Of a DNA stretch of 64,000 bases, positions 10,766 through 58,986 are shown piece after piece (the stretch's first letter is position 1; the number at the start of each line of letters is the position of its first letter). Source of the stretch: Oscillibacter valericigenes Sjm18-20. GTDB taxonomy: Bacteria; Bacillota; Clostridia; Oscillospirales; Oscillospiraceae. The translations under genes and the position numbers were made by a program. The DNA lies in assembly GCA_000283575.1 (NCBI GenBank), contig AP012044.1, positions 4,092,001 to 4,156,000 on the forward strand, given 5' to 3'. Under the pieces are notes generated by a model. The model did no database searches and was not told where the DNA came from. It was given only the letters and a program-made list of their open reading frames with translations.

Positions 10766-13700
10766 TTAAGCGAGAGTCAGAGTGTAGTTGAAGCTGCTCG
10801 CATTATCGGCGTTCGCAATCGTGGCCGACAGATTAGCTGCAGGAGACGTCACACCAGAGGTGGCATCCACGATCAGCGTTGCGGGAACGGTCAGGGTACC
10901 GTCGCCGGTGGTAGGAGCAGTAGTAACTTTGATGGTCACAGAGGTGTTGGAGCTGTTCCAGACCCACTTGTCAGCCGCTTCAATTGCAAAGCTGCTAGCG
11001 GTCGCGGTGGGAACAAACGTAGCTTTCACAACAGGAGCGGAGAAGTTGAAGGTGATGGTATCGCCAGCGCTCCACTTGGCATCATTGTCAGCATCCACGG
11101 TCTGGATGTTGCTGATCTCCACAGGATCGGTGTCGGTAATGGAGGTCACGTTGGCGGGTTTCACCTCAACGCTCTTGTCCAGAGTGATCGTCGCGGTAGC
11201 AGTGGCCTTGGTAGCAGCGGTGTTCGCGAAGTAGAAGGTGACAGCCTGACCGTCGATATTGGCGTTGACCTTCAAGCCCTTGGTCAGGGCAGTACCCAGA
11301 GCGTTGTCCAGTTCCGCAGTCAGCGTGACGACGGCGTTCTTGGGCAGAGTCAGCTGGGTGTTAAGAGCGTTGGCCGTAATAGACAGCTGATAATCGCCGA
11401 TGGTAGCCTTGTTGTCGCCGGTGTAGCCCAGAGCCGTCAGGCTGGTGGTCGCAGCAGCAGCCATGCCATCGAAGGTGTACTGCTCGGTCAGCTTGCTCAG
11501 GCCGGTGATCTCAACGACCACAGCGCTGTTACCCGCAGGAACGGAGGCAGTAATATCATTATCATCAAGCACAAACTTATTCGGATTCTTGGTATAAGTT
11601 GCAAGGGTAGAGGGGACAACCGTGTTCTTAGTATCAGTGCCGCTCTTATTGGCAGTGTAGTCAAAGACATCCGCAGACAGAACCGTGCTGTGATCAGAGC
11701 TCTTGACATAGAACGTCAATGCGGTATCGGATGCGGTTCTGCTGATCGTGGTGGGAGCCGCGGTAGTGAAAGCACTATCAGCATACAGCACGCCGTCAGA
11801 CACATACACGGTCTTGCCAGCGGCAGTAGAGGCATCCTTATCAACGTACAGGACATTGACATCGGAGACAGAGGTTCCAGTGACGTCGATGGTCACAGTA
11901 TCGCCAGCCTCAATGCCAATAACAGCCTTGGTATCTCTGTACGTAGTCTTGCCGGCGCCCACATTGGTAGTCGCATTCACAGCCGCAACAACACCATTCA
12001 CAAGGATATCATAGGTAACGGTGACAGCTGCAGTGGTGGGAACGAAGCTGGCGCGAGCCACGGTCAGATTCACGATGGCATTATTGGCAACTGCAGAAGC
12101 AGTGTACGTAACGGTGGCATTGGTGCCAGCATAGTTACCGCTGCTGGAGCCGCCGCCGGCCTTGTTAGCGGTGATGAACAGGTAGGAAATGGAGCCGGAA
12201 CCGGAGTTGTCGGAGCCATTGTAGATGTAGGACACGGTGAAGCCGGAGACAACGTTGTCATTCAGGGCGTCCTTCATTTCCTTCAGGGTGCTGTAGGTCA
12301 CGCCGTCGTCGGTGTACAGATCGATGACCTGAGCGTTCTTGGCGTTCAGCTCAGCACCGGTCGCACCACCGTTGACGGAGGTAGCGCTGGTGAAGTAGGT
12401 GTCGCTGATGATGTCGCCCTTCACCAGAGAGTCCCCGCTGTAGACGGAGGTGATCTTGTTGGTCTTGATGTACTTGCTCAGGGTGTACACACCAGTGGAC
12501 TCGTTCTTGCTGTAGGTGAAGAAGCAATCGTTGTAGGAGGTGTCAGTCACATCCTTGCTCAGCTGGCAATCGGTCAGCTTCTCGCCGTTGATATAAGCGG
12601 TGAACATAGCCACGCGCTTGCTGTCGGCGTTGTTGACGTGATTGGTAACCTTCTGGAAGTACAGCAGGTTCGCGGTGTTGGCAGCATCGTCGTCGTTGGG
12701 GATAACCACAGCGAGGATCTTGTCGCCGTCTTTGTTCACGATGTAGCTCAGGGGATACTGCTTGGTAGAATCGGTCTTGCTTCCGACCTCGGTGACGCCG
12801 TTGTTCACGGTGATGCCGGTCACGTCGCCGTCGTCGTCCTTGGAGACGAAGATGAACTTGACGTTGGCGTCAAAGTAGACCTTATTCCGGCCGGTGCCGA
12901 TCAGAGCGGAGGAAGCGCCGGACAGAACGTACTTGTCTGCGGTCTCAGTAGCAGCATAAACGTGGACGTTCTTGTTCTGGGTCAGAACGGTCTTGTTGGC
13001 GACCAGCTTGTAGTCTGCGCTGTTGGAGGTGCTGGTCTCATATTCATAGACCTTGCCCTGCTGAGCAGACTCATCGCCAACGGGATAGGTGGGGTTGGTA
13101 CCCAGGTTCAGGGACAGCTCGTTGCCGTTGGAATCCCAGCCCTTGGCGTACTTGACGATCTTGCCGTCAGACAGAGAGCTGTAGATCTCGTCAATGATGA
13201 TCGCGCTGTTGGAAGCGGTCACGTCCTTGACATAGATGGCATAGCCATAAGCGTCCAGATAGACAGTGGTATCGGTAGAGGAGTTGATCTTCGTGGAACC
13301 GGTCAGTTCCTTGTCCTCAGAAGTCCACAGTTTGGACATCTTATAGGCGGTACCGGCGACGGTGATGCCGTTGACGGTCGTGTTGTCGCTCTTCACCTTG
13401 ATGTTGCTCAGGCTGCCGGTGGCGGTCTGAGGAGCAGCGGCGGAGAACACGCGATAGCTGCTGCCGTCCTTCACGGGAACGATCAGCACGTAATCGTCGG
13501 CCTTCAGATCTTTCACAGAGGTCCACGCATCGTCGTCGTCCTTCACGGAAGTGACGGAGGAGACATTGGGATAGTTGGACTTGACACTGGTGCCCAGGAA
13601 GGTGTCTTCCACGGTCTTCAGAGTCACTTCGGTGCTCTTGACCGTGTTGATCTTCATGAGCTGAGTGTACACCAGGACGAAGGATTCAATGGTATCCGCA

Positions 13701-14800
13701 TTGTCGTCGTCCAGATAAGCCTCGACCAGAACGCCGTTGGCGGTCAGATCAGCGATCTCTTCCAGCTTGCCGGCATTGGTAGTGGCAGTGAAAGCCACGT
13801 CCTTGCCGTTCACGGTGTAGTAAGAAGAGGAGACCTTGAAGTCCTTCAGGCCCATATCCTTCACCTTGTCGGCCTTGGTGTCGCCATTGGCCTCGGTGGT
13901 GTAGGAATAATCGGGAGTCAGGGCATAGGTGCCGATCTTCACGTTCTTGTAGCTCCACTGGTTGGAGGGACGGCCGAAATCGTCGGTCGCAGTTCCGTCA
14001 GCGGTCAGCTTCAGATCGGTGAAGTGCTCCTCGCCGAACTGCAGGGTCAGATAAGCGCTGTTGTTGCCCGCATCCTGGCCCTTGATGTTGGCGTTGATCT
14101 TGGAGTTGTTGTTGGTGACATAGCTGTAGGAAGTGTTGCCAACGGTGACCTGAGCATCGCCGGTCTTGACGTTCACGGTGGAGCCGGTGTACTCGACCTC
14201 GGTGGCCTTCAGGGTGTTCAGAGCCAGCAGGCAGGCGGACTCACGGTCCACGGTGTCGTTGGGCTTGAAAGCGGTGGCGAAGTCATTGAACAGGCCAGCC
14301 TTCTGGCTCAGCTTGGCCACGTTCATGGTCCAGCCGGAACCGGTGAAGTGTTCGATGCTGCCGTCATAACCCAGAGCGCCCAGCAGCATCTTGCTGAAAG
14401 CGGAGCCGGACAGGGCGGCGGTAGGACGGAAGGTACCGTCGGTGTAGCCGTCAATGTAGTGGGCGGTCTTGCAGTAGCTGATGACTGCAGCAAAGGTGTT
14501 GGTCACGGCAACGTCCTTATAGGGGGCGGCGGTGGCCGACAGGTTGGCGGCGGCATCGGCGCCGATCATCAGGGAAACGATGATCTTGGCGGCAGCACCG
14601 CGGGTCAGAGCCCCGGTGGGCTTAAAGGAACCGTCCTCATAGCCGGTGATAATGCCCAGCTTGTTGAGGACTGCGACTGCTTCCTCGTACTGGACCTCAC
14701 CCTTATCGGTGAGATCGTCGTAGTCGGTGGCGCTGGCGCTGATGGTGACCAAAGAAAGGGTCATCGCCAGAGACAGTACCAGGGAAAGGAACTTCTTCAT
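10766..14800 (-). CDS. S-layer protein with SLH domains, 1344 aa
   Basis: A signal peptide (MKKFLSLVLSLAMTLSLVTI, cleaved after ASA near residue 24) precedes three S-layer-homology domains (about 34-80, 92-146, 155-200; motifs GIITGYEDGSFKP, YIDGYTDGTFRP). SLH domains anchor proteins to cell-wall polymers. The remaining 1,100 residues are a Ser/Thr/Asn/Asp-rich, almost cysteine-free beta protein with acidic DDDD-type clusters that may bind calcium, and Ig-like repeats toward the C-terminus. Codon use is strongly biased, as in very highly expressed genes. AAGGAGGAAAATCC precedes the ATG. It is probably the main S-layer subunit of the cell. Confidence 0.9.
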   Translation of the reverse strand: MKKFLSLVLSLAMTLSLVTISASATDYDDLTDKGEVQYEEAVAVLNKLGIITGYEDGSFKPTGALTRGAAAKIIVSLMIGADAAANLSATAAPYKDVAVTNTFAAVISYCKTAHYIDGYTDGTFRPTAALSGSAFSKMLLGALGYDGSIEHFTGSGWTMNVAKLSQKAGLFNDFATAFKPNDTVDRESACLLALNTLKATEVEYTGSTVNVKTGDAQVTVGNTSYSYVTNNNSKINANIKGQDAGNNSAYLTLQFGEEHFTDLKLTADGTATDDFGRPSNQWSYKNVKIGTYALTPDYSYTTEANGDTKADKVKDMGLKDFKVSSSYYTVNGKDVAFTATTNAGKLEEIADLTANGVLVEAYLDDDNADTIESFVLVYTQLMKINTVKSTEVTLKTVEDTFLGTSVKSNYPNVSSVTSVKDDDDAWTSVKDLKADDYVLIVPVKDGSSYRVFSAAAPQTATGSLSNIKVKSDNTTVNGITVAGTAYKMSKLWTSEDKELTGSTKINSSTDTTVYLDAYGYAIYVKDVTASNSAIIIDEIYSSLSDGKIVKYAKGWDSNGNELSLNLGTNPTYPVGDESAQQGKVYEYETSTSNSADYKLVANKTVLTQNKNVHVYAATETADKYVLSGASSALIGTGRNKVYFDANVKFIFVSKDDDGDVTGITVNNGVTEVGSKTDSTKQYPLSYIVNKDGDKILAVVIPNDDDAANTANLLYFQKVTNHVNNADSKRVAMFTAYINGEKLTDCQLSKDVTDTSYNDCFFTYSKNESTGVYTLSKYIKTNKITSVYSGDSLVKGDIISDTYFTSATSVNGGATGAELNAKNAQVIDLYTDDGVTYSTLKEMKDALNDNVVSGFTVSYIYNGSDNSGSGSISYLFITANKAGGGSSSGNYAGTNATVTYTASAVANNAIVNLTVARASFVPTTAAVTVTYDILVNGVVAAVNATTNVGAGKTTYRDTKAVIGIEAGDTVTIDVTGTSVSDVNVLYVDKDASTAAGKTVYVSDGVLYADSAFTTAAPTTISRTASDTALTFYVKSSDHSTVLSADVFDYTANKSGTDTKNTVVPSTLATYTKNPNKFVLDDNDITASVPAGNSAVVVEITGLSKLTEQYTFDGMAAAATTSLTALGYTGDNKATIGDYQLSITANALNTQLTLPKNAVVTLTAELDNALGTALTKGLKVNANIDGQAVTFYFANTAATKATATATITLDKSVEVKPANVTSITDTDPVEISNIQTVDADNDAKWSAGDTITFNFSAPVVKATFVPTATASSFAIEAADKWVWNSSNTSVTIKVTTAPTTGDGTLTVPATLIVDATSGVTSPAANLSATIANADNASSFNYTLTLA

Positions 14801-15360: not shown

Positions 15361-15654
15361 TCAGTGCCGCTCGGCCTGTATTTCCGCGAAACATTCGCTG
15401 CAATAAACGGGGCGATCTCCACTGGGCTTAAAGGGGACCTTGCACGGTTTTCCGCAGCGGGCACATACCGCGTCATACATGACACGCTCACCATTTTGCG
15501 CACCGTTCCGCTGCGCCTTGCGGGCTCTCCTGCACTCTGGGCAACGCTTTGGTTCGTTTTGAAATCCTTTCTCAGCATAGAATTCCTGTTCGTCGGCAGT
15601 CCAGATAAATTCCTTTCCGCATTCAGCACAGATCAGCACTTTGTCTTGAAACAT
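15361..15654 (-). CDS. Zinc-ribbon domain protein, 97 aa
   Basis: Four pairs of cysteines are arranged as zinc ribbons: CAEC (9-12), CPEC (38-41), CARC and CSEC. This matches the small CxxC-x17-CxxC proteins widespread in Clostridia, whose function is unknown but which are proposed to bind zinc and nucleic acid or protein. It is a single-gene unit with its own promoter, an inverted repeat over the start of transcription, and a terminator. A good ribosome binding site (GGAGG in CTGGAGGATA) precedes the ATG. Confidence 0.85.
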   Translation of the reverse strand: MFQDKVLICAECGKEFIWTADEQEFYAEKGFQNEPKRCPECRRARKAQRNGAQNGERVMYDAVCARCGKPCKVPFKPSGDRPVYCSECFAEIQAERH

Positions 15655-15677
15655 TTATTGTATCCTCCAGTTCAGCT

Positions 15678-15704
15678 CTAATATGCAACTAATTTGCATA
15701 TTAG
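15678..15704 (-). promoter_or_regulatory. Operator-like inverted repeat upstream of the zinc-ribbon gene
   Basis: CTAATATGCAA and TTGCATATTAG are perfect 11-bp arms around a 5-base spacer. It begins directly after the minus 10 box, covering the predicted transcription start, the classic place for a repressor site. Confidence 0.65.
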
Positions 15705-15705
15705 A

Positions 15706-15734
15706 ATAATAGCACGCAATTGAGTGTATGTCAA
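15706..15734 (-). promoter_or_regulatory. Sigma-A promoter of the zinc-ribbon gene
   Basis: On the minus strand a perfect TTGACA (15729-15734) and TATTAT (15706-15711) are spaced by 17 bases. Confidence 0.75.
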
Positions 15735-15768
15735 TACCATATCGGCCGGTACCTTCAGGGAATCGATA

Positions 15769-17070
15769 TCATCCGCAGGAATTGCCGCTCATGCAAAATC
15801 TGCGCTTCTCCATACTGTTGACCTGCTTTTCCAGCCCACCCGCCTTTTGGGTAAGCCGAATCTCTATCCGGCATCCACACCGCCGCCCGATTTCCTCCTG
15901 AATTTTTTGGGACATTTTGTCCCGTGTCTCCTGAAATGGTATCCCGCTCAATAATACGACCTCTATTCGCAGCACATTTTCGCGTTCCAGCCAGACTTTG
16001 TAATCCAGCAGTTCCGGAAAAGACAGCATCCACTCGTCCAGTTGGCAAAAGTGCAGAAACGCGTCGCCGCAAATCCGCACTTTATTCTCCCGGCGTCCAT
16101 AGACTCTGCTCATCGTTCTTAAAAAAGTGCCGCAGGGACACGGGACCGGCGAAAAGGCAGCCAGGTCTCCCGTCCTGTACCGGATCAACGGCATGGCCTG
16201 CCGGGTGAGTGTGGTAAACGTCACCTCACCCACCCGGCCGTCCTGCACCGGCCGTCCGGTAAGCGGGTCGAGAATTTCGATATACAGGTCGCCCTCCCGC
16301 ATATGATATCCATTCAGCGCCTGACACTCCACGCCGCCGCCGTATCCCATCTCGGTCATGCCATAGTGGGTAAAAACACGGCACCCGCATCGTTCGGTCA
16401 GATCCCGAATTAGGACTGTCGGAACATAGTCGGCGCTGAGGAGCACTTTCCTGATACATTTTTGATAAATTTCTGCCTTTATCCGGCTGAGTTGCAAAAT
16501 CTGTATCGGTATTCCGGCCAGACAGGTGATGCCGTTTTCGACAATACATCTGGCGGTTTCCTCCATGTCCGTTATGACTCCTCGCCTGAAGCAGGCTATG
16601 CCGGATCTTTTTAATGCCTTTTCCAGCAAATCTCCAACACTGCCGTAAGAGGCACCGGGGAAGAGAATCAAAACCCGGTCGCTTTGATCGGTCAGACCGC
16701 TCATTCCATACTCAAAAAAATCAACCGTTGCGTCCAGATCTTTTTGGGAGAAAAAGATTCTCTTTTTCTCCCCCTCCGTACCAGAGCTTCTCAGCGTGAC
16801 AATCCGTCTGATTTCCCGCTGGGGAATGCACAGGAAGCCGTCCGGATTCCGGCGGATTTGATTTGGAAACGTAAAAGGAAGCGCCCGGACATCTCTCCAT
16901 GAATTTACAGAGACATCTGCCAGCTGATCTTTGTAAAAGCGGCTGTGTGTCCGGGCAAACTGCACCGTTTCCATGATCTTTTTCAGCTGGTATTTCTCCA
17001 GCGCCTCCCGGCTGCACGAGGAAATGCCGGTTCTCTCCACAATCCAGTTTTCAAGCGGCGTCCGCTCCAT
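15769..17070 (-). CDS. DVU_1553-family AMP-dependent CoA ligase (phenylacetate-CoA ligase-like), 433 aa
   Basis: The adenylate-forming enzyme signatures are present: TLRSSGTEGEKKRI (about 91-104), the YGMTEMGYGGG motif (about 229-239), and RYRTGDLAAF (about 293-302) with its C-terminal lid domain. This is the phenylacetate-CoA ligase (PaaK) branch, which activates a carboxylate as an acyl-AMP and passes it to a thiol. Because it sits last in a radical SAM/methyltransferase/C-GCAxxG/aldehyde-oxidoreductase cluster, it matches the family named after Desulfovibrio DVU_1553. Its true substrate is unknown. It starts ten bases after the radical SAM gene. Confidence 0.8.
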   Translation of the reverse strand: MERTPLENWIVERTGISSCSREALEKYQLKKIMETVQFARTHSRFYKDQLADVSVNSWRDVRALPFTFPNQIRRNPDGFLCIPQREIRRIVTLRSSGTEGEKKRIFFSQKDLDATVDFFEYGMSGLTDQSDRVLILFPGASYGSVGDLLEKALKRSGIACFRRGVITDMEETARCIVENGITCLAGIPIQILQLSRIKAEIYQKCIRKVLLSADYVPTVLIRDLTERCGCRVFTHYGMTEMGYGGGVECQALNGYHMREGDLYIEILDPLTGRPVQDGRVGEVTFTTLTRQAMPLIRYRTGDLAAFSPVPCPCGTFLRTMSRVYGRRENKVRICGDAFLHFCQLDEWMLSFPELLDYKVWLERENVLRIEVVLLSGIPFQETRDKMSQKIQEEIGRRCGCRIEIRLTQKAGGLEKQVNSMEKRRFCMSGNSCG

Positions 17071-17080
17071 TTTTTACTTC

Positions 17081-18421
17081 TCACTCCCTGTCCCTGTACA
17101 AAGGCCTCCCCGCAGTATCCGTAAGGTTATACATACAAAACGGAATCAGTTTTCCCTGTGGGGTTGTCACGTGGATGCAGCAATCCCGGATTCTGTCCAG
17201 ATCGACATTCCAAGCGTCCTGAAATGCCATAGCTGAGATGCTGAAGGAGTCGCTGCGGATCTGATTGATAATCTCATCCCAGTCGGACAGCGGCTCCGTC
17301 TCCTGACGGATAGGCTGACGGGATGACCAGTTTCCGGCAACAAATTCCACGGCCTTTTTTGCACCTTCCTCCGCGGTGTTTTTACAGCAGCAACTCGTTT
17401 TCGGCGCGGTCGGTACAAGGTTTCCGTCCGAACGGCATATAAAATTACCATGGAAAGAGCAGAGGGCGTTTTCGCAGGCGGCGGGCTTGAAATCCGCCGC
17501 CTTCACTTTTCCCCCCGTCTGCCGCTCCAGCTCGTCCATCACTTCCGGAAGTGTCACCCGGTCGCCGTCCGCCGGGGCGTGGGGCATCCTGCCGAAATAG
17601 CTGACCGGCTGAAAATGTACGCCGCGCACCGCCCGGATGTGATCCAGCGCAAAGCGGACGATGGCCCCGACGTTGTCCACATTGACGCCCGGAACCAGAG
17701 TTGGAACCAGCACCACCCCGATGTGGTATTTTTCACAGTTCCCAATCGCTTTTTCTTTGAGCACCAGCAGCTCCCGCCCGCGAAGCTTCCGGTAGATGTC
17801 GTCTTTTGTACCGTCAAACTGCAAAAAGACGGAATCCAGTCCCGCATGCTTCAGGGCCCAGACGAATTCTTCGTCCTGTGCCAGACGAATTCCGTTCGTA
17901 TTCACCTGAATAAAGGGGAACCCCAGATCCTTCCCCATCTTTACAATCCGGGCTAGATCGTCCCGTACGGTGGGCTCGCCCCCGGAAAGCTGAATATTGC
18001 ATGTCCCGGACACGCTGAGAATTGCTTTATACATGGTTTTGATCTGCCCCAGCGACAAATCCGTATTTTTTGAAGCACTGGAATCCGCAAAGCAGAACCT
18101 GCAGTGAAGGTTGCACCGCTGGGTCACCTCAATCAGCGCCGTGCAGGTGTGCTGGCGGTGCGCTTCGCACAAGCCGCAATCGTACGGGCAGCCTTTTTGG
18201 ACCTTGGTGACGGTCTTTTCCAGATGCGCCCCTTCCCGGTGTCGCATCCACTTCTCCATCGGAATACCCCCCCGCCAAATCACCGCGGAAAAATCGCCGT
18301 GCTCCGGACAGGTTTTCTGCAAATAACAGTCGGTGCCATCCGTTACAATGAAAGCCTCCGTTTTTCTTAGACAAACGGGGCACAAACTCTCCGTTCGGGT
18401 GATGATTCGATTCTCTTTCAA
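17081..18421 (-). CDS. trsS: TrsS-type radical SAM protein, 446 aa (cysteine form)
   Basis: An N-terminal zinc-type section (CPVC, CPEHGDF) and CPYDCGLCEAH precede the radical SAM cluster motif CNLHCRFCF (CxxxCxxC, about residue 103). The SAM-binding GGEPT motif follows, then a C-terminal Cys-rich part (CENALCSFHGNFIC, SCCC, RDCCIH). This layout matches TrsS, a radical SAM protein found in selenoprotein and cysteine versions next to aldehyde-oxidoreductase clusters. Here the frame is continuous without an internal TGA, so it is the cysteine version. The start is TTG, overlapping the stop of the upstream C-GCAxxG gene. Its reaction is not known. Confidence 0.8.
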   Translation of the reverse strand: MKENRIITRTESLCPVCLRKTEAFIVTDGTDCYLQKTCPEHGDFSAVIWRGGIPMEKWMRHREGAHLEKTVTKVQKGCPYDCGLCEAHRQHTCTALIEVTQRCNLHCRFCFADSSASKNTDLSLGQIKTMYKAILSVSGTCNIQLSGGEPTVRDDLARIVKMGKDLGFPFIQVNTNGIRLAQDEEFVWALKHAGLDSVFLQFDGTKDDIYRKLRGRELLVLKEKAIGNCEKYHIGVVLVPTLVPGVNVDNVGAIVRFALDHIRAVRGVHFQPVSYFGRMPHAPADGDRVTLPEVMDELERQTGGKVKAADFKPAACENALCSFHGNFICRSDGNLVPTAPKTSCCCKNTAEEGAKKAVEFVAGNWSSRQPIRQETEPLSDWDEIINQIRSDSFSISAMAFQDAWNVDLDRIRDCCIHVTTPQGKLIPFCMYNLTDTAGRPLYRDRE

Positions 18422-18876
18422 TCCGATTCCCTGCTTCCCCAGGTGAAATCATGTTCCCGCAGAATTTCCCGAATTTTTTCAAAGCTTTTGATCAGCGTGT
18501 CGCCGCATTTGAGCCGGTACTCCTGATTTGTCTTATAATCCATTAAGCTGCACACGCCAATCAGATCGGCGCATTCCGTGCCGCCAAACTCCTGGCGGAA
18601 CCATCCGGTAAACTCATCCACCATTCCGGTATAGCTGGGGGCCGGGCATTCCCGATCATTCCCCTTTCCCGCATACAGGCCCAAAACCGCAATCCCTCCC
18701 GTGAGGACACCACAGGTCTTCTGTTCGCTTCCAATTCCCATGCAAAGGCCGTTTAAGGCCCGGATTAAATCCTTATTTTCCGTCTCTTCGTCTTCCAGCG
18801 CCATTTTCATCATGATCTGGGCGCAGCAATAGCCCGCACTGGAAAGCCGGAACATCCGAAAGCCGGTTTCATCCAC
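18418..18876 (-). CDS. C-GCAxxG-C-C family protein (DVU_1555-like), 152 aa
   Basis: The spaced cysteines of the family are visible: SSAGYCCAQIM near the N-terminus, the CGVLTGGIAVLGLY motif (the GCA/CG-LTGG core), a Cys before ADLIG and in GVCSL, and a last Cys in LKCGDTL. These proteins are presumed redox or metal-binding partners. The GTG start with GGAGGGG just before it is preferred to an upstream TTG. It overlaps the methyltransferase gene's stop by eight bases and the radical SAM start by four, so all three are translated together. Confidence 0.8.
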   Translation of the reverse strand: MDETGFRMFRLSSAGYCCAQIMMKMALEDEETENKDLIRALNGLCMGIGSEQKTCGVLTGGIAVLGLYAGKGNDRECPAPSYTGMVDEFTGWFRQEFGGTECADLIGVCSLMDYKTNQEYRLKCGDTLIKSFEKIREILREHDFTWGSRESD

Positions 18877-19603
18877 AGCTTGTCCCCTCCTTTTCCGCAA
18901 TCATCAGAAAGTACCCCGGTTTACACTTTTTAAGCGCCTCCTGATACCTCCAGCCGTCCACGCAGTTCCCCGACGTCACATTCCAGAACTCCGCCATGGA
19001 ACCAAAGGTAAAAACGGTCTGCACCATCAGCTCTTTTAAAAGGTCGCTGCAATCCTCCCGATAGGAAACAGCAAATCCGGTTTCTCTCAGCGTTTTCTCG
19101 AGCTTTGTCAGATCGTGAAGTCCTCTCAGGCAGCTGTTCATGGCAAACGGGTGCAGTCCGTCCACCTCCTGGGGGTTTTTGGCGTAGACGTCTGTCACAA
19201 CCAGCTTCCCCCCGCCTTTCAAAACCCGGAACGTCTCTTTCAGCGCAGCATTCAGATCCTCCATCAGGGACAACGTGCACTCCGCAAAAACGCACGTAAA
19301 GTGTTCGCTCTGAAACGGGAGCTTTTCCCCCCTGTCCGTCACAAAATCGGCAAATTCGTACCGCTTCCTTGCATCCCCGATCAGTTTTTCGGAGGGGTCA
19401 ATTCCAATTGACCGAATCCGGTGGGTTTTATAAAGGTAGTTCACGGTGGCTCCACGTCCGCAGCCCAGGTCCAATACGGTGTCCCCAGAGGAGAGTCCGC
19501 ACAGTCGGACCGCCTTTTCGGTCAGGCGAAAGCCGCCGGGTCGCAGGGTTTCCCCCGTGACCTCCGTCATGCGTTTACTCTCATAGGCGTTGCAGCCTCC
19601 CAC
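18869..19603 (-). CDS. DVU_1556-family class I SAM methyltransferase, 244 aa
   Basis: The Rossmann methyltransferase motifs are clear: VLDLGCGRGATVNYL (motif I, about residue 43), SIGIDPSEKLI (motif II), FTCVFAECTLSLM (motif IV) and RVLKGGGKLVVTDVY (motif V/VI). The C-terminal Cys-rich stretch fits this family, found beside TrsS. The GTG start overlaps the preceding TAG stop (TAGTG). It may modify a product or protein handled by the radical SAM enzyme; this is inference from the shared cluster. Confidence 0.8.
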   Translation of the reverse strand: MGGCNAYESKRMTEVTGETLRPGGFRLTEKAVRLCGLSSGDTVLDLGCGRGATVNYLYKTHRIRSIGIDPSEKLIGDARKRYEFADFVTDRGEKLPFQSEHFTCVFAECTLSLMEDLNAALKETFRVLKGGGKLVVTDVYAKNPQEVDGLHPFAMNSCLRGLHDLTKLEKTLRETGFAVSYREDCSDLLKELMVQTVFTFGSMAEFWNVTSGNCVDGWRYQEALKKCKPGYFLMIAEKEGTSCG

Positions 19604-19809
19604 TACTTATCCTCCAATCCCTTTTCCACTTCCAGCATTTTGCCCTCCGCCAGCTCCTCCCCGATAAAAACTGCCTTACACCGGGGGCACTGCATCAGCT
19701 CCACCTCAAAATTCCCGCTGAGATAGCTGACTTTCACTTTGCGGGGCTCCAGTTTCTTTTTGCACCTGTCACAAATCCACGAAAAATCCCGCTCTCCGGT
19801 TTCTTTCAT
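19603..19809 (-). CDS. DVU_1557-family small redox protein, 68 aa
   Basis: Two CxxC pairs, CDRC (12-15 region) and CPRC (about 41-44), make a small zinc-ribbon or rubredoxin-like fold. The family is the small redox member of the TrsS cluster. GAGGGGGAAGC lies before the ATG. Its stop overlaps the methyltransferase start, and it follows the dicluster oxidoreductase gene after about 50 bases. Confidence 0.75.
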   Translation of the reverse strand: MKETGERDFSWICDRCKKKLEPRKVKVSYLSGNFEVELMQCPRCKAVFIGEELAEGKMLEVEKGLEDK

Positions 19810-19858
19810 GTGCTTCCCCCTCTTCTCTTTTCAAAAGCCGGTCAAACTCAGCGCAGGA

Positions 19859-22162
19859 CTATTCTCTCACGATTTCCATGCGGTGGCTGTACACGCCGGC
19901 CACCTGAATGTCTCCGTCCCCCTCCCGATAACGCACCCAGTACGTGACGTCGCCAATCCGCAGGCTGGCGGAATAGCAGGCGCTTTCGGGATTGAAGAAA
20001 CGCTCCCCCGTTTTTTGCGCATGGGAGATCACCTGTTCCACGTCCTCCAGCAGAATATACCGTTTTTCCATACTCTCCCGGACTTCGGGCGGGATGACCA
20101 GCCCCAGAGAATTCTCATCTTTCCGTTCCGCGTCCAATTCCTCTCCCCACAATTCCCGCAGGAGCCTGCGTTTGAGCTCCGCCCGGTTTTTTTGCCGCTG
20201 GGAGAGGTTTGGCATTCTCCGGCTTCCGGCCTGCTCCCGATCCTCTGCAAAAATCAGGTCCAGAATGTGATAGGTCCGTTTTCCCCCGCTTACAAACAGA
20301 TCCTTGCACATGGCGCAGTATACCAGAAGATCGTTCCCGCTCTCCCCGATCCGGTCCTTAATAAAAGCCTCGGCCTGTTCCCGGTTGGCGTAATAGACCA
20401 AACCGCCGTATCCGCAGCATTTTGTCTTTTCCCGGGAGTAGTTCAATTCGTCGATCTCATAGCCCAGCTTTCGGACAATCCTCCGGATGCCGGACTGGAG
20501 CGGCTCATTGTATCGGGAGGTGCAGGCATCGTGAATGCTCAGAGTGTGTCCCGCTCCGCGGGCCGCGCAATCCGGCAAGCCATACCGGTCCATGACCTCC
20601 CAGAGGGAGACAATCGAAATTTCCGGCAGATAATTTTGAAACACCTGACCGCAGCTGGAACAGGCCAGAATGAACGTGGGACGCCCCATGGTTTCCCATG
20701 CGCTTTTTAGCCGCTCCACATTTTCCCGCATCAGATCCTGCCGCCCCGCCCAGTCCGCAGGCGCGCCGCAGCAGCCCAGCATTAGTCCCACGCCCTCCTT
20801 TATATGGGAGAGCAGGTAGCGGTAAGATGCCTCCACGGACTCCGGCGCGGATGCGGAGAGCTGGCACCCCGGGTAAAACAGATACCGTGCGGGTCTTCCC
20901 TCCGGCCCGGAGCCGTTTTCCGAGCCAAACCGCGGAGGGGATTTCACCAGGAAAAAACGGTCGCTGTTGCTGAACTGCATATCCCGCAGGGCAAAGTCGT
21001 GGGCGGATGGCGGCATCTTCCCCTTTTCCACCATGCTTTTTCTGGTCTCATGCACCATGTCCCTGAGGTGAACGCCATAGGGACACTGCTCGTCGCATAG
21101 TCCGCACAGAGTACAGGAATTAATCATTTTATTGGCGTAGTGGGCGCCCATAATGACACTTTCGTTGGTTCCAATCTGCCGGGCATAGTCTCTGGGTGCA
21201 ATCTGAAAGCTCTTGAGATGGCTGCAGCATTTCACGCATTGGACACACCGGCAGTGCAGGCACCTTCGGGCCTCCTTTGCGGCGGCTTCCCTCCCGTAGC
21301 CATCGGGAGGACAGGAAACCCGTTCCTCCGGTTCCGCGTCCTCCAAATTGAAGTGCAGCGGGGTGTCAAACGCGCCCTCCCGCTCCCGGGCGGCGGTCAT
21401 GGACACCTTTTTTAAAAACCGTTCAATAGAGACAGCCGCCCGTTTCCCGGTGCTCACCGAGCCGATCACGGACGCCATTTGAGTAACCAGCCGGCCTCCT
21501 GCAAACAGCGAATCTTGCACCTGAAACGTCTGTGGATCGGCTTTAAGCTCTTTTTCCCACGTGCCCGTGGCGAGATAAACGGCGTCAAATTGTTTTAAAA
21601 GCGCAGATAACCCGTCCGAGTCGATTTTCTGATGGCAATGTACGGTGATCCCCCGCTTTTCAAAGACCCGCAGTTCCTCGGCAATGGCCGCCGGGTCAAG
21701 CCGGCTGCCCGCAAAGTCCCAAAGCCGTCCGCCCAGGCGCGGCGACTGTTCATAGACGGTAACCTGCGCTCCTTTTTTGTCCAGCTCTGCGGCGGCGGTC
21801 AAGCCGCTGAGTCCTCCGCCGACGACGGCTACCTTGCCAAGGGTTTTGGGGACGGAAAGCGACTTTTTCGGCAGTGCATATCCGTATTCCACCGCCGCCC
21901 GCTCCAATTCGGCAATATTCAGCGCGCAGTCCGTCTTTTCCCGCACGCAGGCAAACTGGCAGGGATGATCGCAGATTCTGCCGATCAGTCCGGGGAACGG
22001 CATTTTCTTTTCCAGAATCCGATAGGCCCTTTGAAAATCCCCCGCGCCCACCGCATTAAGAAGCGCCGAGACATCCACATGGATGGGACACGCTGCCGCG
22101 CAGGCCGGCGGCTCGTCATGGATACACTGTTCTCCGCTTCCCAGCAGCTTTTGTAAATCCAT
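19859..22162 (-). CDS. Pyridine nucleotide-disulfide oxidoreductase / dicluster-binding protein, 767 aa
   Basis: Domains in order: an N-terminal Cys-rich [4Fe-4S]-type part (ACAAACPIHVDV), an FAD/NAD Rossmann site (GKVAVVGGGLSGLTAAAELD), a dicluster ferredoxin part (CLHCRCVQCVKCC; CTLCGLCDEQCPYG), then a CCG-domain heterodisulfide-reductase-like half (GCCGAPADW, LACSSCGQVFQNY, KCCGYGG). It should move electrons between NAD(P)H, Fe-S clusters and a thiol/disulfide centre, presumably for the aldehyde oxidoreductase encoded just upstream. The ATG at 22162 is used because GGAGG lies before it. A long hairpin separates it from the upstream gene. Confidence 0.88.
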   Translation of the reverse strand: MDLQKLLGSGEQCIHDEPPACAAACPIHVDVSALLNAVGAGDFQRAYRILEKKMPFPGLIGRICDHPCQFACVREKTDCALNIAELERAAVEYGYALPKKSLSVPKTLGKVAVVGGGLSGLTAAAELDKKGAQVTVYEQSPRLGGRLWDFAGSRLDPAAIAEELRVFEKRGITVHCHQKIDSDGLSALLKQFDAVYLATGTWEKELKADPQTFQVQDSLFAGGRLVTQMASVIGSVSTGKRAAVSIERFLKKVSMTAAREREGAFDTPLHFNLEDAEPEERVSCPPDGYGREAAAKEARRCLHCRCVQCVKCCSHLKSFQIAPRDYARQIGTNESVIMGAHYANKMINSCTLCGLCDEQCPYGVHLRDMVHETRKSMVEKGKMPPSAHDFALRDMQFSNSDRFFLVKSPPRFGSENGSGPEGRPARYLFYPGCQLSASAPESVEASYRYLLSHIKEGVGLMLGCCGAPADWAGRQDLMRENVERLKSAWETMGRPTFILACSSCGQVFQNYLPEISIVSLWEVMDRYGLPDCAARGAGHTLSIHDACTSRYNEPLQSGIRRIVRKLGYEIDELNYSREKTKCCGYGGLVYYANREQAEAFIKDRIGESGNDLLVYCAMCKDLFVSGGKRTYHILDLIFAEDREQAGSRRMPNLSQRQKNRAELKRRLLRELWGEELDAERKDENSLGLVIPPEVRESMEKRYILLEDVEQVISHAQKTGERFFNPESACYSASLRIGDVTYWVRYREGDGDIQVAGVYSHRMEIVRE

Positions 22163-22173
22163 CCTTACCTCCA

Positions 22174-22207
22174 GTGGGCAAAACCGGGTAAACCCGGTTT
22201 TGCCCAC
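22174..22207 (-). other. Intercistronic 15-bp perfect hairpin
   Basis: GTGGGCAAAACCGGG and CCCGGTTTTGCCCAC pair perfectly around TAAA. It lies between the aldehyde-oxidoreductase stop and the next gene's ribosome binding site. The minus-strand transcript has no T run after it, so it is more likely a stabilising or processing element than a full terminator. Confidence 0.7.
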
Positions 22208-22214
22208 TTTTCAA

Positions 22215-24953
22215 TCAATGTGAAACGGTTTGTAACCCCTGTCTGATCTTCTCCGGATAAGCGGGCAGCTTTGTGATACGAACACCGCACGCGTTGTAAA
22301 TTGCGTTGATAATGGCCGCGTGGGGAGCGGAAAGCGGCATCTCGCCCGCGCCGGACATGCCAAACGGCCCGTTCGGTCTCTTCGTCTCCTGATGGATGAG
22401 ACGGATGTCGTCCGGGACATCCCGGACCTGCGGAATTCCGCAGCCGGTCAGCGTCGTATTCTTTTTCAAATCCTCGAAATCCTCGGACAGCGCCAGACCG
22501 ATGCCCTGGGCCAGTCCGCCCAGCAGCTGACCGTCCAGAATGGTCTGATTCATGACCGGGCCGCAGTCGGAGACCAGGGTAAGCTTGTCCACTTTGGCCT
22601 TTCCGCTGGTCAGATTGACCGATACCTCGGCCAAAAGCACACCGTACATATAAGCGGGGAACGGGTTTCCCTGTCCCGTTTCCACACTGCACTCCGTACA
22701 GGGCGCCGTCCATTTTCCGGGGTATCTGACAGGAAGGTTCTCCGCGACAGCCTCGTCGTACGTGCGGAAGGTTCCCTCCTCCTTCTTGAGGGCCGCCATC
22801 ATGTTTTCGCAGGCCACCCGGATGGCATTGCCCGTCAAAACATTGGATCGGCTTCCGCCGGCAGGACCGCTGTTAGGGGTAAACTCCATGTCGTTCATCA
22901 CCAGTTTGATCTGCTCGGGCCGGATGTGCATGGGCTTGAGGGATTCGTGGGCGATTGTCTGCGCGCCCATATCGGCGCCCTGTCCATGATCTTCCCAAGA
23001 GCAGCCCACGGTGACGCCGGTTTTTGTGAGCTCCACCCAGGCCTCCGAGGAATCGGCGCCGTCCAGGCCCGAACCGTAGGTGAGGAGCGAAATGCCAACG
23101 CCGTACTTCGTGTCGCTGCTCTCGGCGTTTTTGGCGGCGGAATTCTCCTTTGCCTGCCGGTAAAGCGGCCGAAGCTTGTCCAGCGCCTGCGGATACGCAA
23201 TCACGTCCGGGTGGCAGCCGGTGGGAGTGGTATCCCCCTCCCGATATACATTCAGATAGCGAAATTCCAGCGGATCCATGCCCATCTTTTCGGCGAGTTC
23301 ATCCACCAGCACTTCGGAGGGGAACATGCTCTGGGGAGAGCCATAGCCCCGGAACGCTGCGCCCCATGCGTGATTGGTCGCAACCGTGCGGCCCTCGCCG
23401 CGGATATTGGGGATCATATAGCCCGCGCCGATAAACTGACTGCCCCGCATCGTCACCAGATCGCCGAACTCACAGTACGGGCCGTGATCCACCGTCCAGT
23501 CGGATTTCATGGCGACGAGCTTTCCGTCCTCGTCGGCGCCCAGCTTCAGGTTGACAAAAAACGGCGCCCGTTTTCCGGTATAAGTGATCTGCTGGAACAT
23601 ATTGAACTGAAGATAAACCGGCTTTTTTGTAACCAGCGCGGCCACGCCCAACAGCCCCTCCATGGTGGGGCTGAACTTATAGCCGAACGTGCCGCCGGTG
23701 GGGTTTTGCACGATAATCAACTTTTCCAGCGGAATACCGATGCCCTCCGCCACCATCAGCGCGTGCAGATGCAGTCCGACGCTCTTGGTGTGAACAATCA
23801 GCTTCCCATCTTCGTCCAGATAGGCAAAACCGACGTCCGGCTCCAGAGGGAGGTGGGGCTGGCGCTGCACATAGAAGTCGTCCTCGACGACATACGGAAG
23901 TTTTTCAAGCAGCGGGTCAACCTCTTCTCCCTTTACAACGTGCGTTTCAAAATAGACGTTGGGCGTTCCCGGATGGATCTCAATGGCATCCTCGGCCATG
24001 GCCGCGGGTGCGCTCATATAAGCCGGCAGCTCCTCGATCTCCACCTTGACCTTTTTGGCAGCCTCCTCCGCAATGGACGGACGATAGGCCAGCACCATGG
24101 CAATGGCGTCACCAAACTGAAAAATCTTCTTGTCATTCAGAATTGGCCGTTCCTTGCCGCTGCCCTTATTGGAGGGGAACGCAAGGCCGTTGATTCGGTT
24201 GGTGCCGGGGACATCCTTATAGGTGAGGACCCTGTAAACGCCCGGCATCTTTTCCGCTTCCGACGTATCGATGGAGAGGATGTTCGCATGGGATACCTGG
24301 GCTTGGACCAGTTTGATATGCAGCGTGTCCTCGGGAAGGTGCAGTCCCAAATCCGCGCCAAACTCCCATTTCCCTGTAACCTTGGCCAGGGCGGATGGGC
24401 GGGGCAGGCTGGAGCCCAGCATGGTGTCGCCGTTTTTCAGTTTCGGCCACAGCTCTTCCCTGGTCACTTCGCCGCGCATCATCCTGGCCGCGTCCATAAC
24501 AGCGTCCACCAGGGGCTGATAGCCGGTGCAGCGGCAGACATTCCGATTTTTCTGGAACCAGTCTCTGACCTCCTGTCTGGTGGGATTCGCATTCTCATCA
24601 AGCAGCGCCTTGGCGGAGACGATAAAACCCGGCGTGCAAAACCCGCACTGCGCCGCTCCGTGAATCATCCACGAAAGCTGCAGCGGATGGAGGCTCTCTC
24701 TGGTCCCCACACCTTCAATCGTAATAATCTGCGCCTCATCCGGTACCCTTTTCATTTTAATAATGCAGGATCTGACCACTTTGCCGTTCAGAATTACACT
24801 ACACGCCCCACACTCGCCTTTCCCACATCCAACTTTTGTCCCGGTGAGAAGCAGCCGCTCTCTCAGTACGCTGGCCAAAGTTGCGTCGGGGTCTACTACC
24901 AGGCGGGTTTCATTTCCATTGATAAACACCGTTTTCTTAAGCATGGACAGCAC
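22215..24953 (-). CDS. mop: Molybdenum-dependent aldehyde oxidoreductase (Mop/xanthine-oxidase family), 912 aa
   Basis: The N-terminal 150 residues hold two [2Fe-2S] clusters: the plant-type CGKGECGACS with a later Cys, and CGFCTPGF with CRCTGYQ. The rest is the molybdopterin domain pair, with GGTFGYK, GSQF, AFRGYGSPQS, DHGQGADMG and the active-site Glu motif GAGEMPLSAPHAA. This single-chain layout matches the Desulfovibrio-type Mop enzyme (molybdopterin cytosine dinucleotide cofactor), which oxidises aldehydes to acids. It leads the operon and has AAAGGAG before the ATG. No FAD subunit or cofactor-maturation gene is present here; the dicluster protein is the probable electron acceptor. Confidence 0.93.
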   Translation of the reverse strand: MLSMLKKTVFINGNETRLVVDPDATLASVLRERLLLTGTKVGCGKGECGACSVILNGKVVRSCIIKMKRVPDEAQIITIEGVGTRESLHPLQLSWMIHGAAQCGFCTPGFIVSAKALLDENANPTRQEVRDWFQKNRNVCRCTGYQPLVDAVMDAARMMRGEVTREELWPKLKNGDTMLGSSLPRPSALAKVTGKWEFGADLGLHLPEDTLHIKLVQAQVSHANILSIDTSEAEKMPGVYRVLTYKDVPGTNRINGLAFPSNKGSGKERPILNDKKIFQFGDAIAMVLAYRPSIAEEAAKKVKVEIEELPAYMSAPAAMAEDAIEIHPGTPNVYFETHVVKGEEVDPLLEKLPYVVEDDFYVQRQPHLPLEPDVGFAYLDEDGKLIVHTKSVGLHLHALMVAEGIGIPLEKLIIVQNPTGGTFGYKFSPTMEGLLGVAALVTKKPVYLQFNMFQQITYTGKRAPFFVNLKLGADEDGKLVAMKSDWTVDHGPYCEFGDLVTMRGSQFIGAGYMIPNIRGEGRTVATNHAWGAAFRGYGSPQSMFPSEVLVDELAEKMGMDPLEFRYLNVYREGDTTPTGCHPDVIAYPQALDKLRPLYRQAKENSAAKNAESSDTKYGVGISLLTYGSGLDGADSSEAWVELTKTGVTVGCSWEDHGQGADMGAQTIAHESLKPMHIRPEQIKLVMNDMEFTPNSGPAGGSRSNVLTGNAIRVACENMMAALKKEEGTFRTYDEAVAENLPVRYPGKWTAPCTECSVETGQGNPFPAYMYGVLLAEVSVNLTSGKAKVDKLTLVSDCGPVMNQTILDGQLLGGLAQGIGLALSEDFEDLKKNTTLTGCGIPQVRDVPDDIRLIHQETKRPNGPFGMSGAGEMPLSAPHAAIINAIYNACGVRITKLPAYPEKIRQGLQTVSH

Positions 24954-25260
24954 TCCTTTAATAGCAAACCTTGCATATTTGTTTATAGTTGGCTAATAAT
25001 TAAATAACAGCTGTATTGTTGAACAATATGCAAAATTTAATACATCCGGGAGCTTTGAGCTGGTCCCCGGTTTTATTACCTCTTTTTTATACAAAATAGC
25101 AATATTTTATCGATTTTATTAATTTTTCTTGACAAGTATTATAAGTCCTGATAATTTAGCAACACAGGAAAAAATGCGCTGCCGCGCCACCAATACGCAG
25201 TTCATGTGCTTCCTGTGAGCGCGAATTCAAAAAAATGCAGAAATAAATGGAGGTAATTCT
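24954..25260. other. Divergent intergenic region between mop and the alcohol dehydrogenase
   Basis: This AT-rich 307-base region contains the promoter for the plus-strand alcohol dehydrogenase, listed separately, and should carry the one for the minus-strand aldehyde oxidoreductase. Short inverted repeats (GCTGTATTGTTGAAC area near 25010) could be regulator sites. No gene is present. Confidence 0.6.
25129..25157 (+). promoter_or_regulatory. Sigma-A promoter of the alcohol dehydrogenase
   Basis: A perfect TTGACA (25129-25134) and TAATTT (25152-25157) are spaced by 17 bases, about 100 bases before the dehydrogenase start. Confidence 0.6.
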
Positions 25261-26478
25261 ATGGCAAGATTTACTTTACCCAGAGATCTGTATCACGGCA
25301 AAGGCGCTCTTGAGGCGCTGAAGACTTTTGAGGGAAAACGCGCAATGATCTGTGTCGGCGGCGGCAGCATGAAGAAATTCGGTTTTCTGGACCGCGCGGT
25401 TTCCTATCTGAAGGAAGCCGGTATGGAAGTGGAGCTGTTTGAGGGGATTGAACCCGATCCATCGGTGGAAACGGTCATGAAGGGCGCCGAGGTCATGCAG
25501 AAATTTCAGCCCGACTGGATTGTCGCCATGGGCGGCGGCTCCCCCATCGACGCGGCAAAAGCCATGTGGATCAAGTACGAATATCCCGATGTCACCTTTG
25601 AAGATATGTGCAAGGTGTTTGGCCTTCCCAAGCTCCGCAAAAAAGCCCACTTCTGTGCCATCTCCTCAACATCCGGCACAGCTACCGAGGTGACGTCCTT
25701 CTCCATCATCACCGACTACGCCAAGGGGATCAAATATCCCATCGCGGATTTTGAAATCACCCCGGACGTGGCCATTGTGGACCCCGACCTGGCGGAAACC
25801 ATGCCCAAAAAGCTGGTGGCCCACACCGGAATGGATGCCATAACCCATGCCATCGAGGCCTATGTATCCACCGCCCACTGTGATTTCACCGATCCGCTTG
25901 CCATCTTCGCCATCAAGATGGTTCAGAGCAATCTTATCGACTCCTACAACGGCGATATGTCCAAGCGCGACAGCATGCACAACGCCCAGTGTCTGGCGGG
26001 CATGGCTTTCTCCAACGCGCTGCTGGGCATTGTTCACTCCATGGCCCACAAGACCGGCGCGGCATTTGCCGACTGCGGCGCCCACATTATCCACGGCGCG
26101 GCCAACGCGATGTATCTGCCGAAAGTGATCGCATTCAACGCCAGAGACGAAGAGGCAAAAAAACGCTACGGCCAGATAGCGGACTATATGAATCTGGGCG
26201 GGAAGAACGATGATGAAAAGGTCGCCCTGCTTATCGCCCACCTGCGCGGCATGAACGACGCGCTGAATATCCCCCACTGCATCCAACACTATGGCCCGGA
26301 CAGCTATCCCGCCGAGAACGGTTTTGTTTCCGAGCGTGTTTTTCTGGAGCGTCTGCCGGAGATCGCGAAGAACGCAATTGGCGACGCCTGCACCGGTTCC
26401 AATCCGCGCCAGCCCAGCCAGGAGGAGATGGAAAAGCTGTTAAAGTGCTGCTACTACGATACAGAAGTTGATTTTTGA
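25261..26478 (+). CDS. Iron-containing alcohol dehydrogenase, 405 aa
   Basis: This is a group III dehydrogenase. The NAD-binding GGGS motif (GGGSPIDAAKAMW, about 93-105), ISSTSGTATEVTSFSIITD (about 138) and the metal-ligand helices (HTGMDAITHAIEAYVS and HSMAHKTGAAF) are all present. The ribosome binding site is GGAGG (ATGGAGGTAATTCT). It interconverts an alcohol and an aldehyde, so with the divergent aldehyde oxidoreductase it could feed or drain aldehydes. It runs into the NUDIX gene 64 bases later. Confidence 0.92.
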   Translation: MARFTLPRDLYHGKGALEALKTFEGKRAMICVGGGSMKKFGFLDRAVSYLKEAGMEVELFEGIEPDPSVETVMKGAEVMQKFQPDWIVAMGGGSPIDAAKAMWIKYEYPDVTFEDMCKVFGLPKLRKKAHFCAISSTSGTATEVTSFSIITDYAKGIKYPIADFEITPDVAIVDPDLAETMPKKLVAHTGMDAITHAIEAYVSTAHCDFTDPLAIFAIKMVQSNLIDSYNGDMSKRDSMHNAQCLAGMAFSNALLGIVHSMAHKTGAAFADCGAHIIHGAANAMYLPKVIAFNARDEEAKKRYGQIADYMNLGGKNDDEKVALLIAHLRGMNDALNIPHCIQHYGPDSYPAENGFVSERVFLERLPEIAKNAIGDACTGSNPRQPSQEEMEKLLKCCYYDTEVDF

Positions 26479-42605: not shown

Positions 42606-42880
42606 AATAAAACCGTTGAGGCGGAGATAACGTTGGCGATGCTCTCACAGAGAGTCCGGGATACTGAGAACCGGGCAGAAAACAAACCATCAAATGGACC
42701 GCTGAGGGCGCAGTTAAAGGTTTTTGCCGAGTATTCTGCGACGTGAAGGCATACGTTAGTTGTCAGGGATATGTTGGTATCCCATAAAGTGCGCGGCTGT
42801 ATGCCGCGAATCAAGGTGGCACCACGAATAGGTTTATTCGTCCTTGACAGAACGCAATCGTTCTGTCAAGGATTTTTTTA
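42606..42880 (+). promoter_or_regulatory. Tryptophan T-box leader with terminator
   Basis: The leader carries the T-box GGTGGCACCACG (42815-42826) just before a strong terminator (TCCTTGACAGAACG with its complement and seven T, 42841-42879). A UGG tryptophan specifier candidate at 42695-42697 lies in the usual context before GCTGAGGG. Uncharged tRNA-Trp should bind it and block the terminator, turning on the trp genes. The gene start follows 20 bases later. Confidence 0.9.
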
Positions 42881-57644: not shown

Positions 57645-57647
57645 ACC

Positions 57648-58928: not shown

Positions 58929-58986
58929 TTTCCAGCTATCTATAGCCCGTATGGGCAAAGGATAATATAAAAAAGGAGAAGAAAAA

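Follow-up and report, generated by a model that had tools for sequence, protein, structure and literature searches.

Two well-described enzymes have relatives in the locus analysed here. The Desulfovibrio aldehyde oxidoreductase Mop is a long-studied molybdenum enzyme, and Tes (tetraether synthase, GDGT-MAS; MJ0619, structures 7tol and 7tom) is the enzyme that joins archaeal membrane lipids. Relatives of both are encoded among seven genes at positions 15769–24953 of a 64,000-nucleotide stretch of Oscillibacter valericigenes Sjm18-20 (contig AP012044.1, positions 4,092,001–4,156,000, forward strand; 'the window', to which coordinates refer unless a locus or contig is named). The closest described gene set is the DVU_1551–1559/TrsS cluster of NCBIfam (models NF045645, NF045646 and NF045663–NF045669): all seven window proteins exceed the curated cut-off of their own dedicated model, and the cluster has therefore already been catalogued by NCBI curators, the difference being that the window has no adjacent NF045664 factor or NF045665 transferase. 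TrsS is listed as a selenoprotein family in a 2026 review (PMC13188914). The literature searched gives no function for the cluster; Haft and Tolstoy 2025 (mSystems), the reference that the review gives for TrsS, lay outside the search and may describe it. The locus is a catalogued but functionally open system, whose gene set is real, rarely split and present in many anaerobic bacteria. Added here are a nearly one-to-one tie between a Tes-like enzyme and Mop, a reading of the flavo-dicluster protein D and the conserved tail of the small protein z, which make its function directly testable.

We tentatively favour an arrangement in which Mop, D and z form an aldehyde-oxidising electron chain, for which the other four genes, encoding a methyltransferase (M), a C-GCAxxG-C-C protein (C, or CGA), TrsS (T) and a ligase (L), make a cofactor or carrier. 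Mop (A), lacking a flavin of its own, would oxidise an aldehyde to the acid; D would supply FAD, four [4Fe-4S] sites and two HdrB-type CCG sites and pass the electrons on; and z would serve as a detachable small metal-binding domain of D, its LEDK tail docking on a partner. TrsS is predicted to carry out Tes-type radical chemistry, abstracting an H atom and forming a bond at an unactivated carbon, probably via a carbon–sulfur intermediate on its C-terminal cluster. The ligase would activate a carboxylate and the methyltransferase would methylate, M-C-T-L together making a small cofactor or electron carrier used by Mop–D–z. The features of the locus are listed below, with NCBIfam scores as bits/curated cut-off.

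22215..24953, minus strand: Mop (A), molybdopterin aldehyde oxidoreductase, 912 residues, GTG start (NF045668, 1592.6/1100; Pfam, phmmer)
19859..22207, minus strand: D, flavo-dicluster protein, 782 residues (NF045663, 1011.7/530; Fer4_20, Fer4_17 and CCG; conserved cysteines)
19603..19809, minus strand: z, DVU_1557 protein, 68 residues, CxxC-x24-CxxC, LEDK end (NF045645, 98.9/60)
18869..19603, minus strand: S-adenosylmethionine (SAM) methyltransferase, DVU_1556 family, 244 residues (NF045667, 250.8/155)
18418..18900, minus strand: C-GCAxxG-C-C protein, DVU_1555 family, TTG start (uncertain) (NF045669, 160.9/103)
17081..18421, minus strand: TrsS, Tes-like radical SAM protein, 446 residues, TTG start (NF045646, 682.4/490)
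15769..17070, minus strand: PaaK-type acyl-adenylating (CoA) ligase, DVU_1553 family, 433 residues (NF045666, 442.5/300)
25261..26478, plus strand: iron-containing alcohol dehydrogenase (Fe-ADH), divergent from Mop (PF00465)

All seven genes named in a first-pass annotation of this DNA were found at this place, adjacent as it listed them by plus-strand coordinate. Transcription runs the opposite way: because all seven lie on the minus strand, Mop is transcribed first, followed by D, z, the methyltransferase, CGA and TrsS, with the ligase last. The overlapping stops and starts described there occur at three of the six junctions (z/methyltransferase, 1 nucleotide; methyltransferase/CGA, 32 nucleotides if the TTG start is right; CGA/TrsS, 4 nucleotides), the other three being gaps of 7, 49 and 10 nucleotides. 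A promoter scan of 15600–25300 gave three sigma-70-like sites against a mean of 5.0 in shuffles, that is, fewer, and is therefore uninformative on a promoter.

A scan of genome contigs with a TrsS alignment yielded at least 567 relatives among at least 590 candidate stretches, the best 80 of which were kept as a sample biased toward close relatives; by record these loci (numbered with L, as genomes are with G) come from Bacillota, Campylobacterota, Chloroflexota, Desulfobacterota-type lineages and a few others. Each gene was scored with profiles built from the window proteins, over those loci that had room for it: ligase 67/72, CGA 65/70, methyltransferase 62/69, z 62/67, D 54/56 and Mop 50/54. 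All seven genes were present in 46 of the 52 loci with room for the full set, and 38 of the 52 have the exact order, an association that exceeds chance. The comparison of trsS loci for shared genes proposed in the first-pass annotation has thereby been run and returns a real unit; the seven genes do co-occur, the point on which that annotation had let its proposal hang. Order varies in Desulfosporosinus loci, where C precedes M, and L066, L070, L073, L078 and L101 each lack several of the genes. When ten of these genomes were searched as a whole, Mop was over its cut-off in seven, including those of L066, L073, L078 and L044; the genome of L070 gave a full-length match at 766 bits plus a fragment at 727, both below the cut-off, that of L071 a 504-bit fragment, and that of L101 nothing above 318 bits. 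The window TrsS is equally close to Campylobacterota and Clostridia (61%), which suggests transfer between phyla.

Across whole genomes, TrsS and Mop are rarely apart, and this argues for the Mop–D–z chain served by the other four genes. In the phylum to which the window belongs, 299 genomes were searched: TrsS exceeded its cut-off in 20 and Mop in 23, and 19 carried both (Fisher p 3.5e-25, relatedness ignored); the corresponding counts in 120 genomes of the class to which the genome of L083 (Desulfovibrio sp.) belongs were 88, 88 and 87 (p 2.1e-26, relatedness again ignored), so that 87 of the 89 carriers of either gene have both. The two exceptions in the class sample are G328, with Mop only, and G399, with TrsS only. 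In the phylum sample, the TrsS-only genome G071 has a Mop match cut short on the TrsS contig (952.7 bits, positions 2–626), and among the four Mop-only genomes of that sample TrsS-like matches reach 456 bits in G288, 470 in G068 and 332 in G078, with no match of that kind in G190. The methyltransferase, D and the ligase were followed in 69 chosen genomes, made up of 20 TrsS carriers, 10 borderline cases and 39 others; the genome-wide search for z covered 12 genomes. The methyltransferase exceeded its cut-off in all 20 TrsS carriers and in G288 and G068, which have Mop and a TrsS below its cut-off, and in none of the 47 others, G078 and G190 included; this distribution also favours the proposed chain and its cofactor genes. 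D was over its cut-off in 23 of the 69 (19 of the 20 TrsS carriers, G288, G068, G190 and, barely, G043) and the ligase in 19 (18 of the 20 TrsS carriers and G288).

Copy numbers suggest a division of the set in two. In the class sample TrsS was single in all 88 carriers (split into pieces of one frame in four), while Mop over its cut-off was present in two or three copies in six of the 88, as expected if TrsS is a shared maturation or cofactor enzyme. Numbers vary elsewhere: in the phylum sample G267 has two Mop genes and one TrsS, and G190 two Mop genes and no TrsS. Extra copies of A, D or z without a second M-C-T-L occur in L052, L055, L161 (where the second Mop lies 55 bases before an Fe-ADH gene on the same strand) and G190, which likewise supports the division of labour proposed here. 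We read A-D-z as a catalytic module and M-C-T-L as a separable module serving it in nearly all carriers. That M-C-T-L is present in fewer copies is slightly easier to reconcile with a task in maturation or cofactor supply than with a step in a pathway bound to a single Mop.

The neighbours of related loci lend further support to a cofactor. XdhC-like open reading frames (ORFs) are present in 43 of the 80 loci and DVU_1551-like NTP transferase ORFs in 38, typically directly behind the ligase, and alpha-ribazole-phosphatase-like genes in 28; the first two families were identified from one representative each, the XdhC one scoring below its model's cut-off. Neither an XdhC-like (NF045664) nor an NTP transferase (NF045665) gene adjoins the cluster in the window, and to call it complete, as had been done, is too strong when each kind of gene is present in about half of the related loci. 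Elsewhere in the genome a single XdhC_C match lies at C1:3363099-3363521, and a MocA-like gene scoring 129.5 bits (cut-off 186.45) adjoins a different xanthine-dehydrogenase-type locus (L137). Among the roles suggested in the first-pass annotation, building a cofactor fits best, given the single TrsS beside multiple Mop copies and the XdhC- and MocA-type neighbours in relatives; repair of one found no support, and activation of an aldehyde-derived acid is a less favoured possibility.

Several observations weigh against this reading. TrsS can also be duplicated: G038 carries it twice along with two Mop genes, and Desulfosporosinus fructosivorans has two TrsS loci (L056, L072), each with its own Mop. 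G190 (96% complete, 310 contigs) retains Mop, D and z with no TrsS, methyltransferase or ligase over cut-off, and G328 has Mop but lacks TrsS and z, no labelled gene adjoining its Mop; M-C-T-L is therefore not strictly needed. Purification and structure determination of the D. gigas Mop are not known to have revealed an unexplained cofactor. Gene order and distance correlation could also arise from joint transfer alone. The distance correlations, computed over 40 rows and highest for D–TrsS (0.88; Mop–D, 0.74), were rejected as partner evidence, as they fit joint inheritance and single out no partners.

Some of the same observations would suit a catabolic or assimilatory pathway, in which an alcohol is converted to the aldehyde by Fe-ADH, to the acid by Mop and to the acyl-CoA by the ligase, TrsS and the methyltransferase acting on the substrate skeleton. 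We consider this somewhat unlikely. It would account for the two TrsS–Mop pairs of some genomes, for a sigma-54-activator-like gene in 13 of the 80 loci (by eye) and for the Fe-ADH gene, which is divergent from the cluster in the window, near it in 5 of the 80 related loci and behind the second Mop of L161; the enzyme is a possible aldehyde source loosely associated with the cluster. The ligase is also in keeping with a pathway, its family conserving a C-terminal K422-R423 together with C249, H256, C311 and C313, residues whose roles are presumed. Its best solved-structure match is the phenylacetate-CoA ligase 4r1l. Identity with PaaK was rejected (116 bits against the TIGR02155 cut-off of 646.3), and the phenylacetate-specific enzyme unconnected with Mop that the first-pass annotation had allowed for is not what was found, the protein scoring 442.5 bits against the 300 of its own family. 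Against a pathway, TrsS does not duplicate with Mop in the 120-genome sample, and besides Fe-ADH and a tungsten aldehyde oxidoreductase (AOR)-like gene (five loci each) no catabolic-looking family occurs in at least 5 of the 80 loci (most families named by eye). The Oscillibacter genome itself has no match to tungsten AOR (PF02730).

The structural model of TrsS (pLDDT 89.0, 45-row alignment) superposes on Tes from end to end (Foldseek against 7tom/7tol: TM 0.82 by query and 0.73–0.74 by target, root-mean-square deviation about 6 Å, E 3.5e-44), the next-best fold match reaching a TM of 0.40 by query. Equivalents of the Tes metal ligands named in the available part of PMC9433317, among which the cysteines of [Fe4S4]C do not figure, are present with the same spacing: C14-x2-C17-x20-C38-x2-H41 for the rubredoxin-like iron, C78/C82/C85/H88 for [Fe4S4]N, C103-x3-C107-x2-C110 for the radical SAM cluster, and, in the position of the labile Met439 of [Fe4S4]C, M398. 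Each of these residues is conserved in 80 or 81 of 81 sequences. A carbon–sulfur intermediate on the C-terminal cluster has been reported for Tes (PMC9433317), and by analogy TrsS may use the same carbon–sulfur chemistry; the presence of the named ligands is among the grounds for assigning M-C-T-L a synthetic role in the Mop–D–z system. Shared fold, ligands and labile methionine notwithstanding, TrsS differs from Tes in several respects. It scores 378.3 bits with the Tes model NF045702, below the cut-off of 450; its unaligned stretch ahead of the C-terminal cluster region falls about 44 residues short of that in Tes (71 against 115); and in a quick tree of 48 rows TrsS forms one group of 39 (SH-aLRT 97), outside which fall two DMSO-reductase-linked proteins (SH-aLRT 100) and six proteins found in other contexts (99), the deeper order being unsure because several long branches were flagged.

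Those differences, together with the Mop context, bear on the proposal that TrsS synthesises membrane-spanning lipids in bacteria, as publications have suggested for bacterial homologues of Tes. The fold, the named ligands and the match of the window TrsS to 7tol (phmmer E 4.6e-91) speak for it; the score below the Tes cut-off, the separate group, the shorter stretch and the tie to Mop and not to lipid genes speak against it. Tes-like genes with lipid-like neighbours also exist separately (all neighbours named by eye): Tes/TrsS-like proteins lie near prolipoprotein diacylglyceryl transferase-like genes in L112:8794-10197, L113:9770-11224 and L116:9252-10691, and two tandem Tes/TrsS-like genes lie within a fatty-acid-synthesis-like gene set in L114:8008-10817. 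We regard this as the least probable of the explanations considered. Bacterial Tes homologues, including those of Chloroflexota and Desulfobacterota, have been read as a possible sign of membrane-spanning lipids (PMC8941075, PMC11868695). Because the window TrsS matches Tes so strongly, some of these published homologues are probably TrsS; such confusion would matter for lipid biomarkers.

Selenocysteine-containing TrsS was rejected among the loci collected: the in-frame TGA of L017 is the second-last codon of the match and therefore likely the end stop, and tblastn of the TrsS loci found one other in-frame stop, near the end in L024.

A further possibility is that the molybdenum cofactor itself is what TrsS and the methyltransferase modify. 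The XdhC- and MocA-type genes in the neighbourhood of relatives would fit this, as would two TrsS-like radical SAM proteins (about 395 bits, under the cut-off) encoded directly beside DMSO-reductase-family genes at L115:9145-12647 and L117:3399-7098, the former locus also containing genes resembling those for molybdenum cofactor synthesis (by eye); these two represent a second molybdenum link of the TrsS/Tes superfamily. It is highly improbable all the same: the solved Desulfovibrio Mop carries ordinary molybdopterin cytosine dinucleotide (MCD), and G190 and G328 have Mop without TrsS.

The window Mop has the features of a D. gigas-type aldehyde oxidoreductase. It matches NF045668 over its full length and the Desulfovibrio enzymes 1dgj (1290 bits) and 1sij (1262 bits; phmmer) over nearly the whole length, its eight cysteines of the two [2Fe-2S] sites (C43, C48, C51, C63; C103, C106, C140, C142) are each conserved in 46 of 46 rows, and no FAD domain appears in a Pfam scan. 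No large difference in sequence separates it from the Desulfovibrio proteins; the partner genes are what is added. Flavodoxin has been called a putative physiological partner of Desulfovibrio Mop (PMC10223205), where the genes of the cluster point to other companions: the Tes-like radical SAM enzyme, D and z. Mop of Sulfurospirillum multivorans is 142-fold up in pyruvate fermentation, in which aldehyde formation is called obscure, and ranks among the ten most abundant proteins (PMC6242987); that Mop can be so abundant is consistent with a dedicated electron chain and cofactor supply. D. vulgaris Mop appears under ethanol metabolism in one proteomic table (PMC10920352) and with a negative fold change in the table of an adhesin-mutant study (PMC11784015). 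Its gene companions make the role of Mop testable.

D begins with a GltD-type N-terminal Fe-S region and FAD fold, followed by two 4Fe-4S motifs and two CCG motifs. Matches to GltD- and NfnA-type FAD proteins stop near residue 220, and YLATG (211) is separated by 19 residues from FAGG (235), by eye the halves of the FAD fold rejoining without an NAD(P)H domain. Residues 211–238 correspond to 12–43 residues in the 53 of 55 family rows listed, which is too short for a second domain there. NCBIfam names D an NAD(P)H-dependent pyridine-nucleotide oxidoreductase; no NAD(P)H domain is seen in its sequence, in which it differs from the GltD/NfnA-type proteins. Both C-x(n)-CC-x(n)-CxxC motifs were found by pattern in at least 50 of the 55 rows, and the ten CCG cysteines (five per motif) are each conserved in all 55. 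D shares the two motifs with HdrB-type CCG proteins and differs from these in combining them with an FAD part in one chain. In our proposal D provides the flavin missing from Mop as its partner, and may deliver electrons to an acceptor other than NAD(P), for instance a disulfide-like one.

If M-C-T-L makes a new and widely shared redox cofactor, such as a thiol carrier, the HdrB-like CCG sites of D could use that cofactor as the electron acceptor of Mop. This more specific version is quite unlikely; if true, it would mean carbon–sulfur or carbon–carbon chemistry on an unactivated chain, and a textbook molybdenum enzyme would have concealed next to it the bacterial equivalent of the heterodisulfide system.

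The small protein z has four cysteines, conserved in 69 of 69 rows, and a nearly invariant end. The tail set comprises 95 ORFs in 91 loci, giving 89 distinct sequences, of which 86 end exactly in LEDK and the remaining three in LEEK or MEDK; as the tail is part of the search profile, divergent ones could have been missed. Mean pairwise identity outside the tail is 46%. The codons of the tail vary and all three stop codons are used, which points to selection on the protein. A Shine–Dalgarno sequence of the next gene was rejected as the cause (50 distinct 15-mers in the 89), and LEDK is also found in the 31 of 89 without a methyltransferase following within the distance used, as in L123, although some of these are artefacts of distance or locus end. 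In the search of 12 genomes, 17 z genes were found in 11, 15 ending in LEDK and two in LEEK, partly repeats of the first set. D and z share one reading frame in L098, L101 and G190 (L157:6625-9123), which supports their placement in one electron chain.

A nearly invariant tail on a small protein beside a radical SAM enzyme and an adenylating enzyme, with varied codons and stops behind it, could also mean that LEDK is a substrate modified by TrsS, the ligase and the methyltransferase, as in peptide-derived cofactors. Systems of that kind (PQQ, mycofactocin) combine a precursor peptide with a peptidase, and no peptidase is found among the families present in at least 5 of the 80 loci (most named by eye). 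In G190, with no TrsS, methyltransferase or ligase over cut-off, both z proteins keep LEDK, a finding more in line with docking to D or Mop than with a modification carried out by TrsS. We hold such a modification very unlikely; the tail would instead dock on D or Mop within the Mop–D–z chain.

In the methyltransferase, C109 is conserved in 66 of 66 rows. CGA has four conserved cysteines and an all-helical model with no convincing fold match (best E 1.3), and its sequence match to split-Soret cytochrome c is weak (E 0.014). At L111:8403-10919, in a genome without a Mop match, a TrsS-like protein (363 bits) is encoded next to a DVU_1556-like methyltransferase that falls under the cut-off (134 bits with the profile built here, 127 bits in the 69-genome scan); the two possibly form a TrsS–methyltransferase pair on its own.

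Elsewhere in the window, a big protein that looks secreted and has an S-layer-homology-like start (by eye) adjoins the cluster at 10766–14800 on the minus strand, and TRAP-transporter-like genes (by eye) lie at 57150–60024 on the plus strand. No RNA element was found near Mop; the only two to reach the Rfam threshold in the window are T-box leaders at 52539–52802 (minus strand) and 42607–42848 (plus strand), apparently 5′ of leucine- and tryptophan-synthesis-like genes (by eye).

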